Below the pieces are notes generated by a model. The model made no database searches and was not told where the DNA came from. It was given only the letters and a program-made list of their open reading frames with translations. This document shows, piece after piece, positions 1,528 through 9,576 of a stretch of DNA of 27,041 nucleotides. The stretch spans positions 1 through 27,041 of the IMG/VR virus record IMGVR_UViG_3300020436_000073. One strand, written 5' to 3'. Position numbers and translations under genes: made by a program. The stretch's first letter is position 1, and every line of letters starts with the position of its first letter. The DNA is from a virus.

Positions 1528-1893
1528 ATGAAAGAGCTGAAACGAGATCCCGTAAAGTACATTCGGGACAAAGCAAAAGCAAGGTATGAAAAAGGAACCG
1601 AGTGCTATATTTGCGGAAAGGAAACAGAGTTAGACTTTCATCATTACTATAGCTTAAGCCCCCTCCTGTACAAGTGGGTTGAAGAAGTAGGATACGATTT
1701 ACAGGATATAAGGGAGTTTCGCGACGAGTTTATTAATGAACATATTGAAGAGCTTTACGACTATACTGTAACTCTCTGTCATACGCACCATTTAAAATTA
1801 CATTCTATTTATGGGCGGAATCCCACCCTGCACTCAGCCCCAAAGCAGCAGCGCTGGGTAGAGATTCAAAGAGGAAAGCATGGCTTGGTATAA
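1528..1893 (+). CDS. HNH-type nuclease-like zinc protein
   Basis: The 121-residue protein carries CxxC at C26/C29, a His pair at H38/H39 (LDFHHYYSL), and a second cluster LCHTHHLKLH with C84, H85, H88 and H92. This pattern of two metal-binding knuckles around an HH motif fits small HNH endonucleases. In HK97 an HNH protein (gp74) encoded near the terminase assists terminase-dependent cutting, so a packaging role is plausible here. It sits between terL and portal, starts just after promoter P1, and overlaps the portal start by 14 bases. The ribosome site is poor (CAAAG before ATG). It could also be a selfish homing-type nuclease, but its small size and its overlap with the next gene argue for a settled phage gene. 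Confidence 0.75.
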   Translation: MKELKRDPVKYIRDKAKARYEKGTECYICGKETELDFHHYYSLSPLLYKWVEEVGYDLQDIREFRDEFINEHIEELYDYTVTLCHTHHLKLHSIYGRNPTLHSAPKQQRWVEIQRGKHGLV

Positions 1894-3085
1894 TAACATA
1901 TTCGGCGGAGGAAAGAAAAAGGAAGAAGCCGACATGGAAAAGTTGAATCCAATTCAACAATACCTGGGCCAAACAAGTGAGTCATCTCGTGAGTTTACTG
2001 CAAACTATGAGCAGTTCTACGAGAATTTAGAAATTGTTAATCGAGGTGTAAACCTTATTGTAGATGATGTTGCAGAGATTCCTGCAACAGTCAATCGAGT
2101 AGCAACAAATGGCGTTATAAAAGGTCTTCGACGCGCACGTGTCGACTCTCTTTTAAATAAGGAGCCTAATCTTTTTCAAGACATTAGTTCCTTTAAGCGT
2201 AACTTAGTTACTGACTTTCTTCTCGATGGTAACATTTTTATCTATTTTGATGGCGCTCATTTATATCATCTTCCCGCAGACAATGTAACAATTCATGCGG
2301 ATAGTAAAACGTATATTGAAAAGTATACTTATAATGATGTAGACTATGCTCCGGAAGAGATTATACATATAAAAGAAAATTCTTTTTATTCAATCTTTCG
2401 AGGAACATCAAGACTGAAGCCTGCGGTAAGAACAATGCAACTTACCACAAATATGAGAAAGTTTCAGGATAACTTTTTCAAGAACGGAGCAGTTCCAGGT
2501 CTTGTACTAAAGTCTCCAAATACTTTATCAGAAAAAATTAAAGAGCGCATGATTCAGTCTTGGACTATGCGTTATCGCCCAGACGCAGGAGGTAGACGGC
2601 CTCTGATTCTTGATGGCGGTATTGAAGTCGATGAGATTTCAAATGTAAACTTCAGAGAGCTAGACTTCCAAGTTGCTATCTCTGAAAATGATAAAATTAT
2701 TTTAAAAGCATTGGGAGTACCACCAATTATGTTGGACTCTGGCAACAATGCAAATATTCGTCCAAATATGAGAATGTACTACCTTGAAACTGTACTTCCA
2801 ATTGTACGAAAAATAAATGCAGCATATTCTAGATTTTTTGGATTTGAAATCTCAGAAGATGTAACAGATATTCCTGCTTTGCAACCTGAGTTGCGCGATG
2901 CAGCTTCATACTATACTGCTCTTGTAAATGGCGGTATTATTACAATAAATGAAGCAAGAGACTCTCTGGGTTATGAAACTCTTGATGGACAAGATGATAT
3001 TCGTGTTCCACAAAATATTGCAGGAAGTGCAGTAAACCCAGACGAAGGAGGTCGACCAGAGGAATCTGATGATAACGAGGAATAG
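1880..3085 (+). CDS. Portal protein (HK97 family)
   Basis: The portal forms the ring at one capsid vertex through which DNA enters and leaves, and it docks the terminase and later the connector. The 401 residues show typical HK97/lambda-type portal segments: NYEQFYENLEIVNRGVNLIVDDVA near the N-terminus, FKRNLVTDFLLDGNIFIYFD in the wing region, FRGTSRLKPAVRTMQLTTNMRKFQDNFFKNGAVPGLVL in the core, and KALGVPPIMLDSGN followed by the stem/crown helices. The C-terminus is acidic (PDEGGRPEESDDNEE). A good ribosome site (AGAGGAAAGC) precedes the ATG, inside the end of the HNH gene. Length and order are normal for the family. Confidence 0.93.
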   Translation: MAWYNNIFGGGKKKEEADMEKLNPIQQYLGQTSESSREFTANYEQFYENLEIVNRGVNLIVDDVAEIPATVNRVATNGVIKGLRRARVDSLLNKEPNLFQDISSFKRNLVTDFLLDGNIFIYFDGAHLYHLPADNVTIHADSKTYIEKYTYNDVDYAPEEIIHIKENSFYSIFRGTSRLKPAVRTMQLTTNMRKFQDNFFKNGAVPGLVLKSPNTLSEKIKERMIQSWTMRYRPDAGGRRPLILDGGIEVDEISNVNFRELDFQVAISENDKIILKALGVPPIMLDSGNNANIRPNMRMYYLETVLPIVRKINAAYSRFFGFEISEDVTDIPALQPELRDAASYYTALVNGGIITINEARDSLGYETLDGQDDIRVPQNIAGSAVNPDEGGRPEESDDNEE

Positions 3086-3371
3086 AAAACATAGGTTAGT
3101 GCGAGAGCTTGGATTATTCTTTGCTGAAAATGGCGGAGTATTGACAGCAAGAGATTATAAAAACTCTAATCTTCGCCCCAAGCATCTAACAATGAAAGAA
3201 ATTTTAAGAGTAATGGGTTCTTATACTACAGCAGTAAGTTGGATAGAAAAATATGAACCCGAACTGTGGAATACCATTCACGGTATTAAACCAGCCCCCG
3301 AACCTAAGAAGGAAGATCCCTTAGAGAAGCTGGCTAAGAAAACAGGAAAAGAAGATGGAAAAGATATTTAA
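3069..3371 (+). CDS. Small basic protein of unknown function between portal and capsid fusion
   Basis: I do not recognise this 100-residue protein. It overlaps the end of the portal gene by 17 bases and the start of the protease-capsid gene by 17 bases, and has a ribosome site (AGAGGAATCTG) spaced correctly before ATG 3069, so it is very likely translated. The body is helical (HRLVRELGLFFAENGG, LTMKEILRVMGSYTTAVSWIEKY), and the C-terminus is a Lys/Glu/Pro-rich tail (PAPEPKKEDPLEKLAKK). The middle could form a small helix-turn-helix-like fold, but this is only an impression. Its position suggests a head-assembly accessory role. Confidence 0.7.
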   Translation: MITRNRKHRLVRELGLFFAENGGVLTARDYKNSNLRPKHLTMKEILRVMGSYTTAVSWIEKYEPELWNTIHGIKPAPEPKKEDPLEKLAKKTGKEDGKDI

Positions 3372-5382
3372 TCTTACTTCTACTTTCAAAGCTTTTGAAG
3401 AGGACGATGGCGGCGTCCACATCTGTGGAATGGCCAGTACTCACGATACTGATCGTGCTGGTGATGTAATTGCAGCCGAAGCATGGTCAAAAGGTGGTCT
3501 TTCAAACTTTGAAAAGAATCCAATTATTTTGTTCAATCATGATTATAATAAGCCTATTGGCAGAGCTACAGGACTAAAAGTTAATGATAACGGTCTTGAG
3601 CTTAAAGCAAAAATTTCTAAGTCTGCTCCCGATCATGTAGCAGAACTAGTTAAAGAAGGTATCCTTGGAGCTTTCTCCGTCGGTTTTCGAGTCAAGGATG
3701 CTGATTACCTGGAGGAAACTGACGGATTAAAGATAAAGGATGCTGAGTTGTTTGAAGTATCAGTTGTATCGGTACCTTGCAATCAAGCAGCAACTTTCTC
3801 GCTCTCAAAGTCTTTTGATTCTATGGAAGAATACGAAGATTTTAAGAAAACTTTCAAAAATAGTGTAGATCTAGCCGGTCAGTCTCTGGCTAAGGATGAA
3901 AATTCATCGGTAGCTAGTGACACACCGGACGGGGTTACAAAAGCCCAAAAGGAGATGAAAATGTCGGAAGTACAAACTCCCGAAATCGACCTGGATGCTT
4001 TTGCTAAGAAAGTAGCAGAGGAAACTGCTGCTAAGATTGCAATGAAGCAGGCCGAAGAAAAAGCAGCTGCTGAAGCTGCTCGTAAGGAAGTAGAAGAGGC
4101 CGAAATGGCTAAAGCTGCTCAAGAAGAAGAAGTTCAGTCTGCTATCAAAGTAGGCGTTGAGTCTGGTGCTGAGCGCCTGATGGCTGATCTGCAGAAAGAG
4201 TTTGAAGCTAAGGAAGCGGATACTACTGAAATTCTTCAAAAGTACAAGGCTGATCTTGAAGAGAAGTCTGCTGAACTCGAAGCCATGCGTAACAGCAAGC
4301 GTGACTTCTCTGGCCGTAAGGCTCCCGGTGATCTGAAGCCCATCGCTAAGGATCTCCTCTCTGCTCACATTCTCGGCAAAATTACTCGTAAGGGTTGGGA
4401 CACTGACTTTGGTCGTGACCTGCTTGAGAAGGCAGAAATCACTTATACGGCAACTTCTTCAGCTGGTATCGACGTTGTCGTATCAACTCAGTTTGAGGAA
4501 GAAGTACGTCAAGCACAGAAGATTGCTCCTCTCTTCCGAGAGATCAATGTAACTTCTGGCGCTACTGTACTGCCGATCGCTCCCGATACTGAGCCTGCAA
4601 ACTGGGCTGCTACGGGTGCGGACGTTACTGCTAACAACCTCGAAGAGGCTGGCGCAAGTGACAACAACTATAACATCAATCAGGTAATCCTGCAAGCGCA
4701 TCGACTGATTTCTAGTACGTTCATCACGAACGACACGGACGAGCAAATCGTTCTTTCAGTCTTGCCCATGATTACTTCAGCTCTGGCTCGTGCACACGCT
4801 ATTGCTATCGACAAGGCCATCCTTGTTGGTAACTCTGGCGGCTACACCACTGGTCTCGTAGGTGCTTCTGGTACTGACGATACTAACGGTTATGCTGAGG
4901 CATCTGCTCAGACTGCTCTGGACGCTTCTACTACGGCAGAAGTTACTCCTGCTAACCTTCTCGCAATGCGTAAGGAAATGGGCAAGTATGGTCTCGAGGC
5001 TTCTCAAGTCGCGTATATCGTACCGACTGATTGCTATTACGAGCTGATTGATGCTTCTGGCTTCACCGACGTTACTGAAGTTGGTTCCGATCTGGCAACC
5101 AAACTCACCGGTATGGTTGGTACGGTCTTCGGTTCACCCGTGATCGCTACTGATCAACTGGCTCAGAACCTTGGTGCTGCTGGTGCAGCAACTACGACTG
5201 CAGCTCTGGCTGTTTATATGCCGAATTATGTGGCTCCGCGTCTGCGTGGTGTCAACGTAGAAACCGACTACATCGTCAAAGAGCAGCGCACCGTACTGGT
5301 CGCAACTCAGTCTCTTGGCTTTAACGAGTTGGTTGCTAATTCTGGCTCTAACAAGCCTGCTATCCGCTGGCCTTTCCAGTAA
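3355..5382 (+). CDS. Prohead protease / scaffold / HK97-fold major capsid protein fusion
   Basis: One 675-residue frame holds three head-assembly functions. Residues 1 to about 165 are an HK97-type prohead protease (peptidase U35 family), with the expected His (FNHDYNKPIG, H62), Ser (GAFSVGF, S108) and acidic motif ELFEVSVVSVPCN (E131/E134). Residues about 203-330 are a charged Ala/Glu/Lys-rich coiled coil like an HK97 delta/scaffold domain. Residues about 335-675 are an HK97-fold capsid, with E-loop and P-domain type sequence (e.g. STQFEEEVRQAQKIAPLFREI, near 380-400). The outer ATG at 3355 has an AGGAAAAGAAG ribosome site. An internal in-frame ATG at 3961 has a better one (separate entry). 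From about 3961 on, codons become those of highly expressed genes: 16 Arg codons, none AGA/AGG. A terminator follows the stop. In most phages protease and capsid are separate genes. Confidence 0.93.
   Translation: MEKIFNLTSTFKAFEEDDGGVHICGMASTHDTDRAGDVIAAEAWSKGGLSNFEKNPIILFNHDYNKPIGRATGLKVNDNGLELKAKISKSAPDHVAELVKEGILGAFSVGFRVKDADYLEETDGLKIKDAELFEVSVVSVPCNQAATFSLSKSFDSMEEYEDFKKTFKNSVDLAGQSLAKDENSSVASDTPDGVTKAQKEMKMSEVQTPEIDLDAFAKKVAEETAAKIAMKQAEEKAAAEAARKEVEEAEMAKAAQEEEVQSAIKVGVESGAERLMADLQKEFEAKEADTTEILQKYKADLEEKSAELEAMRNSKRDFSGRKAPGDLKPIAKDLLSAHILGKITRKGWDTDFGRDLLEKAEITYTATSSAGIDVVVSTQFEEEVRQAQKIAPLFREINVTSGATVLPIAPDTEPANWAATGADVTANNLEEAGASDNNYNINQVILQAHRLISSTFITNDTDEQIVLSVLPMITSALARAHAIAIDKAILVGNSGGYTTGLVGASGTDDTNGYAEASAQTALDASTTAEVTPANLLAMRKEMGKYGLEASQVAYIVPTDCYYELIDASGFTDVTEVGSDLATKLTGMVGTVFGSPVIATDQLAQNLGAAGAATTTAALAVYMPNYVAPRLRGVNVETDYIVKEQRTVLVATQSLGFNELVANSGSNKPAIRWPFQ
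3949..3963 (+). promoter_or_regulatory. Internal ribosome binding site and ATG giving a scaffold-capsid product
   Basis: AAGGAG at 3949-3954 stands six bases before an in-frame ATG at 3961 (MSEVQTPEID...). Another ATG at 3955 is too close to the AAGGAG to use it well. Starting at 3961 would give a 473-residue scaffold-plus-capsid protein without the protease. The site sits exactly at the junction of protease and scaffold domains and where codon use changes, which is what a real internal start would look like. Lambda offers a precedent in C/Nu3, where the scaffold is made from an internal start within the protease gene. Confidence 0.7.
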
Positions 5383-5423: not shown

Positions 5424-5450
5424 TGGGGCGGTACGCCGCCCCAAGTTTTT
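5424..5450 (+). terminator. Intrinsic terminator after the capsid gene
   Basis: A GC-rich hairpin has stem GGGGCGG at 5425-5431, loop TACG, and CCGCCCC at 5436-5442, with one extra T-A pair at the base (5424/5443). AAG and then five T residues (5446-5450) follow. UACG belongs to the stable UNCG tetraloops. It lies about 40 bases after the capsid stop. No strong promoter is visible before the next gene at 5463, so the terminator is probably leaky and sets a high capsid to connector ratio. Confidence 0.88.
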
Positions 5451-5462
5451 ATGAGTTAATTT

Positions 5463-6050
5463 ATGGCGGATTTAGTTACATTAAATGATTACAAGTCGGC
5501 AGAGGGCATCAACAGCCCCAAAGATGATAGCCGTCTGAACTTTATCATTCCCTCTGTGAGTCAACTCGTAAAAACTTATTGTGCAAATAGTTTTGTAGAT
5601 TTCTACTCAACTAATAAAACGGAGACAATTTCTGTAAACTGGGAGACACATATTGTACAGTTAACAGAGAGTCCTATTGTTAGTATTGTATCTGTAGAGG
5701 AGCGAGATAACTATAGTCAAAGTTATAGCACTCTTACTACAGGAGCTCATGAATATTATCTTGATGAGTCTACAGATTGTTTATATAGAACAACAGGACA
5801 AAGTTATAAAAACTGGGCTCGTGGCCCAGCATCAGTTCGTGTAGTGTACAAAGCAGGATATGCTTCTCTACCCTCTGATTTGCAACTTGCAGTTTTTGAT
5901 TTGATTACATACTACTTGAAAGATGAACACAAAGAGCGACGCTCTATCGCAGGCGCCAGTATTCAAAATCAATCAAGCACAAGTCAGCGTAATAATGTGG
6001 CATTTCCAGATCACATAAAACGTGTACTTGATTTGTATAAGAACTTTTAA
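5463..6050 (+). CDS. Head-tail connector (gp6-like adaptor)
   Basis: The 195-residue protein matches the gp6-like head-tail connectors that form a ring under the portal after packaging. It has an N-terminal helical part (LNDYKSAEGI...DDSRLNFIIPSVSQLVKTYC), a beta-rich centre (ESPIVSIVSVEERDNYS; VRVVYKAGYASLPSDLQLAVFDLITYYLKDEHKERRS), and a short C-terminal tail. The run AGYASLPSDLQLAVFDL is typical of the family. The start is unusual: the ATG comes only 12 bases after the terminator T-tract and has no clear Shine-Dalgarno sequence (AGTTAATTT). The stop overlaps the next ATG by one base. Confidence 0.85.
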   Translation: MADLVTLNDYKSAEGINSPKDDSRLNFIIPSVSQLVKTYCANSFVDFYSTNKTETISVNWETHIVQLTESPIVSIVSVEERDNYSQSYSTLTTGAHEYYLDESTDCLYRTTGQSYKNWARGPASVRVVYKAGYASLPSDLQLAVFDLITYYLKDEHKERRSIAGASIQNQSSTSQRNNVAFPDHIKRVLDLYKNF

Positions 6051-7399
6051 TGGCTAGTAATGATTTAAAAGCATTTTTAACAAAATTAGATTCTGAACTA
6101 CAACAAGATTCGGATGACTACAGAAGACTTGTAGGCAATAAGAAAACTCATATATTTACCTATAAAAGTTCTACAATTAGATTTGTACTAAGGGATTTAT
6201 TTAACAGGTCTACTGGTAGTGCCCCAGAAGGTAGAGAAGCTATGAGAGCAATCTCAAAAGATCTAAGACCTTTAATAACAAACTTAACACAAAGAATTAG
6301 AGATGAATTTTTAAAGATTGCTCAAGGAGATCCCACTATTCAGTATAAACTTATACGAGGTGGGGTATCTGTTATGGTTCTTGAGTTTACAGGAGCCAGG
6401 GGACAAAGAAATAATTATGGTTTAATTGCTTCAACTTATAAAGAAGCTTTAGATGATTTTTATGAAAGTTTTCTAGCTTTACTAGATAAACCTTTAACTC
6501 GCCCTAGTAGTAGTAAGAAGGGGCAAGTTAGAGAGATAAGTACAGCAGGAGAAGCTTTTAACTTAGAGCATGTTCAAGGAAGTAATATTGAGTCTTTTTT
6601 AAATGATGCAGTTTACAATGCATTACAAGAAACATATGGAGACTCAACAGTTCCTCCCGAGCTACGAAAAGAGCTAGAAGAATTAGGATTAGGTAGTATA
6701 TTAGAAGTTTATAAAGATGCAGAAACAGGAATTATAAACGTAACAATAAGAAGTCAAATTTTAAATGCAATAGCAGGTGGAGGCGCAGAAAAAACTTTAG
6801 CAAAAAAATTACGAGAAGCAGTAAGTAAGTTAGATATACCAAACTTGCCGGGGTCAGATAGTCTTGTAGAGGCAAAAAGAAAGAAAGCTGTTGATAAAAT
6901 CATGAAGCCTTTTAAAAGGCAAGACAACTTAAAAGTAAAAAAAGAAAATACTAAAATTAAAGGAGCAAAAAGTTCAACTTCTTTAAAAAAGACCCCTAAA
7001 AAGTCTAAAATTAAAAAGTCTGCTCCTGCATTGATGGCAAAAAAATCTATAAAAAGTAAAAGAGATCCTGAAGAAAAACGTTCACTCTTTTCAGTGATGG
7101 CAATGATAAATCAAAAACTGCCACAAACAGTAGAAAAGAACATGAGATCTCCGGGATTAGAAAGCCAAACAGGTAGATTTGCAAGGAGTGTTAGGCTAAC
7201 AGATGTAAGTGAAACTCGACAAGGTTTTCCAAGTTTTGGCTATACTTATAGAAAAGATCCTTATCAAGTTTTTGAAGTAGGAACAGGTAAGGCTCCGTGG
7301 GCAACTACACAGAGAGATCCTCGTAGACTTATTGACGCATCTATAAGAGAGTTAGCAGCACAGATGGCATTAGGAAGATTTTATACTAGGAGAGTATAG
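6050..7399 (+). CDS. Probable neck / tail-completion protein with a lysine-rich linker
   Basis: This 449-residue protein sits between connector and tail terminator, where HK97 gp10-like or lambda Z-like neck proteins are encoded. The N-terminal half is mixed alpha/beta (DDYRRLVGNKKTHIFTYK, SVMVLEFTGARGQRNNYGL). Residues about 276-345 are an extremely lysine-rich, low-complexity linker. The C-terminal 100 residues form a second compact domain (SQTGRFARSVRLTD, YRKDPYQVFEVGTGKAPW, DPRRLIDASIRELAAQ) that looks like the gp10-type neck fold (GRFxxS...PYxxxxExGT). It is much longer than typical gp10 (about 110-150 residues), so the N-terminal part and linker may be an addition. The start overlaps the previous stop (TAATG). 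Function is inferred mainly from position. Confidence 0.65.
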   Translation: MASNDLKAFLTKLDSELQQDSDDYRRLVGNKKTHIFTYKSSTIRFVLRDLFNRSTGSAPEGREAMRAISKDLRPLITNLTQRIRDEFLKIAQGDPTIQYKLIRGGVSVMVLEFTGARGQRNNYGLIASTYKEALDDFYESFLALLDKPLTRPSSSKKGQVREISTAGEAFNLEHVQGSNIESFLNDAVYNALQETYGDSTVPPELRKELEELGLGSILEVYKDAETGIINVTIRSQILNAIAGGGAEKTLAKKLREAVSKLDIPNLPGSDSLVEAKRKKAVDKIMKPFKRQDNLKVKKENTKIKGAKSSTSLKKTPKKSKIKKSAPALMAKKSIKSKRDPEEKRSLFSVMAMINQKLPQTVEKNMRSPGLESQTGRFARSVRLTDVSETRQGFPSFGYTYRKDPYQVFEVGTGKAPWATTQRDPRRLIDASIRELAAQMALGRFYTRRV

Positions 7400-9547: not shown

Positions 9548-9576
9548 TTGACATATCAGCTCACCTTCGCTATAAT
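9548..9576 (+). promoter_or_regulatory. Perfect sigma-70 promoter P2 for the tail-assembly genes
   Basis: TTGACA at 9548-9553 and TATAAT at 9571-9576 are spaced by exactly 17 bases. Transcription should start near 9583, leaving a leader of about 35 bases with AAGGA (9605-9609) before the chaperone gene ATG at 9617. It follows the terminator directly, so this marks a true operon boundary. Confidence 0.93.

Follow-up and report, generated by a model that had tools for sequence, protein, structure and literature searches.

Probable internal initiation of a major capsid protein precursor within the protease-capsid fusion gene of viruses with a T5-like head gene order

In phages lambda (gpC/gpNu3) and Mu the scaffold is produced from an in-frame start nested in the protease gene, and in lambda the short product is made in excess. 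For the Mu-like phage PaMx73 a nested scaffold start in the protease gene, with a Shine-Dalgarno (SD) sequence plus Val177, is described (PMC4378225). Fusions of protease and capsid protein are described in actinophages, namely Circum gp12, Maggie gp7 and RRH1 (PMC5513430, PMC7302621 and PMC9671378). Nested starts in phage protease genes, serving scaffolds, and protease-capsid fusions in actinophages are already known; a search of the openly licensed literature found no paper on a protease-capsid fusion that contains a nested capsid start preceded by a conserved RNA leader. In the T5-like phages (Demerecviridae) the genes for the prohead protease and the major capsid protein pb8 are separated by a stop codon, whereas at the locus described here they are fused. 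A head of this type takes hundreds of shell subunits but few proteases (the head of the T5 relative DT57C is T=13; PMC10713586), and here one gene would supply both.

The window, that is, the whole stretch of DNA analysed (27,041 nucleotides), is a 27-kb viral record with head and tail genes in T5-like order. The head genes and their expression signals were located as follows.

141-1445: terminase gene
1470-1498, + strand: sigma70-type promoter, perfect TTGACA-17-TATAAT, upstream of the head-gene operon
1528-1893: T5 nicking-endonuclease-like gene, at the T5-like gene position and with weak HNH-endonuclease matches
1880-3085: portal gene
3069-3371: small gene
3355-5382, + strand: protease-major capsid protein fusion ORF of 675 aa, fused in 226 of 226 distinct relatives
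5424-5443, + strand: terminator-like hairpin after the capsid stop, present in 111 of 114 relatives

The perfect promoter upstream of the operon was found in 73 of 80 relatives. No strong sigma70 promoter pattern was found on the + strand of the window between 3355 and 3960, and a scan of the protease half in 124 representatives detected a strong sigma70 pattern in one of them and nothing conserved. Since the upstream promoter and the terminator are conserved and an internal promoter is not, the capsid and portal genes appear to share one transcript; an excess of capsid must then have a post-transcriptional origin, unless the scan overlooked a phage-specific promoter. A second perfect TTGACA-17-TATAAT promoter was observed at 9548-9576, before a tail gene block. 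The nicking-endonuclease-like gene (1528-1893) suggests that these phages may carry T5-like nicked DNA. All close relatives were metagenomic contigs from uncultured phages distantly related to T5. Their clade is frequent in viral metagenomes; in cellular genomes it was represented by one contig in a gammaproteobacterial MAG, which is probably a binned virus.

Within the fusion ORF the following domains and signals were recognized.

3421-3825, + strand: HK97-type prohead protease domain (S78; Pfam PF04586, E 1.5e-16, residues 23-157)
3659-3743, + strand: H0, a 19-pair RNA hairpin around the presumed catalytic serine codon, 200-300 bases from the internal start
3875-3928, + strand: H1, a long RNA hairpin (CCGGU..GUC..CUGGCUA / UAGCUAG..GAC..ACCGG)
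3932-3946, + strand: H2, a short hairpin ending a few bases before the SD
3949-3954, + strand: AAGGAG, the SD of the internal start; xGGAG-N6-ATG in 226 of 226 distinct relatives
3961-3963, + strand: internal ATG, putative capsid precursor start, codon 203; ATG in 226 of 226
3961-5382, + strand: predicted internal product, a major capsid protein precursor of 473 aa with matches to PDB 8ho3 and 5tjt

The protease part scored 61.4 against Pfam S78 (cut-off 21) and 72.2 bits against TIGR01543 (cut-off 59), the latter placing it among the HK97 family prohead proteases. The His and Ser active-site motifs were present, and H62 and S108, which we take to be the catalytic residues, were invariant among relatives. 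The capsid part matched the T5 capsid precursor (8ho3, E 3.3e-38) over residues 29-456 of the internal product, with residue 29 aligned to T5 capsid residue 25, and also the mature T5 capsid (5tjt, E 6.2e-36). Homology thus extends across scaffold and shell, as expected of a T5-type HK97-fold capsid protein; judged by the alignment to the mature T5 capsid, the N-terminal scaffold/delta domain reaches roughly 4425, an approximate boundary. Scores below the cut-off were obtained with TIGR01554 (27.3 bits for the fusion and 23.3 for the internal product, cut-off 27.5), the direct T5 match being far stronger, and with the NCBIfam model for prohead protease/major capsid fusions, NF045541 (49.9 bits over residues 49-268 only, cut-off 525). 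An AlphaFold model of the fusion had a mean pLDDT of 46.8, too low for the fold to be read. Because S78 ends at residue 157 and the T5 capsid match begins at internal residue 29, the ATG at 3961 lies at the domain junction, which is where the initial annotation had placed a start for excess capsid protein.

Direct reading of the sequence agreed exactly with that annotation as to the AAGGAG at 3949-3954, its six-base spacer (ATGAAA) and the ATG at 3961. This ATG is in frame with the ATG at 3355, 606 nt or 202 codons upstream, and ORF 3355-5382 is open; an additional in-frame ATG at 3955 was not conserved among relatives. AAGGAG occurs 22 times in the window, so that a single copy is unremarkable and it is the conservation that is remarkable. 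Three IMG/VR scans gave 189 distinct proteins including that of the window, all of them fused and all with the ATG; AGGAG with 6-nt spacing was present in 187 and TTGGAG in two. After a fourth scan the set comprised 226 distinct proteins, every one with the in-frame SD and start at the protease domain junction, and the loss of AAGGAG/ATG in close relatives, named at the outset as grounds for abandoning the idea, was not encountered.

As the relatives are not independent, codon changes were tallied along a tree built from 124 sequences with identities under 97%. Codon 199 (AAG, CAG, GAG or TTG, encoding K, Q, E or L) had changed 17 times at base 1, once at base 2 and never at base 3, where mixed K/Q/E columns elsewhere mostly had 13 to 28 third-base changes. 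Codon 200 was GAG in 124 of 124 sequences (median for other conserved Glu columns, 19 third-base changes). A third base that stays fixed while the amino acid varies indicates that conservation acts on the nucleotides rather than on the amino acid. Insertions and deletions were found on either side of the SD-ATG unit and none within it. At -10.8 kcal/mol the internal SD ranked first among the 21 starts of the window, compared with a weak -4.3 kcal/mol for the protease start and -7.3 kcal/mol for the major tail protein, all three values being subject to the anti-SD of the host, which may differ. The start region was moderately open, at about the 80th percentile of unstructuredness.

A change of codon use exactly at the junction had also been claimed. 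Recounting gave the same 16 Arg codons from 3961 onwards with no AGA/AGG, and the contrast held against neighbouring genes, which have many AGA/AGG; against the protease half it was thin, there being only 3 Arg codons (1 AGA), too few for Arg codons alone to be accepted as evidence. ATC accounted for 17 of 26 Ile codons after the junction versus 2 of 9 in the protease half, and CTG/CTC for 26 of 36 Leu codons versus 3 of 14, the codon set after the junction being rich in ATC, CTG and CGT. Free change-point analysis placed the shift at codon 210 when 124 relatives were pooled and at codon 260 for the window alone (the junction is codon 203); a change at the junction was thus upheld for the clade and only roughly for the window.

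Across the fusion gene synonymous diversity was about 0.85 of expectation, but only 0.08-0.5 at codons 165-216 and 0.3-0.5 at codons 101-130, the latter covering H0. No intervals of low synonymous diversity were found in the portal and terminase genes. Those in other genes lay at adjoining or overlapping starts of the next gene (1870-1888, 3354-3366 and 7385-7394); overlapping starts served as the positive control for the method, and the junction behaves like these true overlapping gene starts. Low synonymous variation was also observed at 5559-5574 (codons 33-38 of the head-completion gene), where an overlapping start is no explanation. An overlapping gene was rejected as the source of the low values at codons 165-182 and 101-130, the other frames being stopped in most relatives. 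At 3875-3946 the cause is RNA structure.

Against protein-preserving codon shuffles the H1 region was more stable in 20 of 20 sequences (mean z -2.8), as was H0 (20 of 20, mean z about -3.5), with control regions at a mean z of -0.6 to -1.2; the folding z of the H1 region (3847-3975) was -5.05. In 39 diverse sequences 95.6% of the cells in H1 paired, and two-sided changes were found at five pairs versus 1.3 in shuffles. Its covariation score was 0.102 versus 0.041, none of 500 shuffles scoring as high, and the changes were compensatory. The H2 stem was kept, with compensatory changes, in all 80 distinct leaders while its sequence varied freely, the mean stem score being 13.89 versus 10.56 +/- 0.24 for arm-swapped and 6.26 +/- 0.42 for shuffled leaders. 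H1 was absent from 23 of the 124 representatives, and these 23 retained H2, the SD and the ATG. H0 was kept in 124 sequences with an alifold value of -19.6 on the + strand versus -0.56 on the reverse strand; its covariation was not above the control, because its changes were mostly one-sided between G-C and G-U.

A covariance model of H1, H2 and the SD gave one full-strength match (at least 110 bits) in each of 10 records, with the next-best match elsewhere at 19 bits or less and E-values that are rough; a further copy of the element in the genome was rejected on this ground. An Rfam search returned no known RNA family. A DNA hairpin on either strand was rejected, since H0 folds on the + strand only and G-U pairs occur in H1 and H2. 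A long-range interaction between ACUUUC (3850) and the sequence following the ATG was likewise discarded, as on inspection it was not kept in relatives. A near-repeat, AAGGATGCTGA, occurs in H0 at 3691-3707 (loop) and 3733-3748 (3' arm) and is conserved in relatives. Unusually conserved synonymous sites were also seen at 3850-3870 (AAAACTTTC..GTAGATC), upstream of H1 and outside its stem. H1, with its internal loops, is a long irregular stem upstream of a downstream ribosome binding site, as is typical of RNase III-type sites, and both H0 and H1 resemble sites at which double-stranded RNA is processed, for which they are candidates only.

Taken together, it is very probable from the sequence comparisons that one transcript gives rise to few protease-capsid fusions and many capsid precursors through internal initiation. 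Weak initiation at 3355 would yield the 675-aa fusion as the minor product, and strong initiation at 3961, from AAGGAG with its fixed 6-nt spacer, the 473-aa capsid precursor in excess. The existence of two nested products with capsid in excess, as first proposed, gains support from the conservation, the third-base constraint, the T5-like alignment and the SD strength. As there is no stop between the domains, the protease would be made only as an extension of a capsid subunit, barring cleavage of the polypeptide or of its mRNA. Through their common capsid part, fusion and capsid precursor would assemble together, and the protease would thereby enter the prohead; during maturation it would free itself and trim the scaffold domains. 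The H1/H2 leader within the protease code would most likely keep the start open, with its ribosome binding site clear of pairing to upstream sequence, or else process or stabilise a capsid-only mRNA, with the effect that capsid exceeds the portal and the protease of the same operon. That both proteins are made, their ratio, their co-assembly, the self-release and the action of the hairpins are what we infer from the sequence. A more tentative extension, possible though doubtful, is that H0, H1 and H2 form a control element for the protease:capsid ratio: cleavage at H0/H1 would destroy the protease-coding part and release a stable capsid-only mRNA bounded by H2 and the terminator, while uncut transcripts would supply the protease-bearing subunits.

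Tying the protease to a shell subunit would settle its delivery and its dosage at one stroke, and the conserved RNA leader within the coding sequence makes dosage control directly testable. Gene callers give one 675-aa protein here and would miss the probable major product of the gene.

Other readings of the junction were weighed against internal initiation. If only the full fusion were translated, each capsid subunit would begin with its own protease, self-removed at maturation. The single open frame in all relatives agrees with this, as do the actinophage fusions described without an internal start in the available parts of PMC5513430 and PMC7302621. In the Circum family the junction start was not conserved across 11 phages, so that such an arrangement exists or is tolerated and fusions can work without a junction start, which counts against a nested start. 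Translation of the fusion only is nevertheless very unlikely here, for the third bases of AGGAG are absolutely conserved despite changing amino acids, the 6-nt spacing is fixed, and the strongest SD of the window lies exactly at the T5-like capsid start, none of which would be predicted if translation did not initiate there. The hairpins could instead belong to an RNA element with another task (autoregulation, a small RNA, or a packaging or replication signal) in which the SD-like part is not a start; H0, H1 and H2 are indeed conserved RNA structures, and H0 lies 200-300 bases from the start. We regard this as most unlikely, because SD, spacing and ATG persist although the sequence of H2 is free and 23 of the 124 representatives have no H1, and because what is conserved corresponds exactly to a ribosome binding site, placed where T5-like capsid genes have their homologous start.

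A separate transcript originating within the protease gene, with 3961 as its first start codon, would also account for excess capsid; H1 could lie near its 5' end, and phage-encoded promoter types are possible. With a strong sigma70 pattern in the protease half of 1 of 124 representatives and none on the + strand of the window at 3355-3960, it is improbable, and if it were true the internal start at 3961 would still be used. Strong hairpins inside a coding sequence could, finally, cause a programmed frameshift or bypass from which free protease results, with capsid supplied by the fusion. No other-frame stop near the junction is conserved, however (TGA at 3956 depends on codon 201 being ATG), none of the relatives has an interruption of the zero frame, and the conservation of SD and ATG would go unexplained, which makes this reading scarcely credible.

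Internal initiation at 3961 can be set beside several described arrangements. Overlapping in-frame endolysin genes (PMC9430671) likewise give long and short products with a common stop, and differ in function. The actinophage fusions also have protease and capsid in one open frame, but are not close homologues. In four of four Maggie-type small actinophages an in-frame junction ATG was observed with AAGGA/GAGG (L255:186-1802, L256:195-1760, L257:153-1745 and L244:3704-5287), a possible independent case of a nested capsid start. In a Circum-type gut phage fusion (L258) the junction KEEEKM, in protein letters, might correspond to an AGGAG-type site followed by an in-frame Met. An ES18-like Salmonella phage considered as a fusion was rejected, its genes being split.

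With the T5-like phages the locus shares the order terminase, nicking endonuclease-like gene, portal, small protein, protease, capsid, head completion and tail terminator, and their capsid proteins align end to end with the internal product from its first methionine. In Proteus phage Stubb, Enterobacter phage KKP_3711 and Vibrio phages VspSw_1 and D239 the capsid gene begins with an ATG 2-13 bases past the protease stop, and purine-rich sequences resembling an SD overlap the end of the protease gene or lie next to it. Protease and capsid are in the same frame in Stubb, so that only stop codons separate the split and fused arrangements. The capsid of D239 is only about 24% identical to that of the window. 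H0, H1 and H2 are absent from the four T5-like records examined, in which the model of H1, H2 and SD gave no matches.

The parallel to lambda Nu3 drawn in the initial annotation stands as regards the nested in-frame start. As in the lambda/Mu type, this start is at the end of the protease domain and the two products would have a common C-terminus, the shorter presumably being in excess here too. In the part of PMC4378225 available, no structured leader is described for that type. The parallel fails as regards the product: in the lambda/Mu type the nested product is scaffold only and the capsid is encoded elsewhere, whereas here it would be the whole capsid precursor, including the capsid shell domain.
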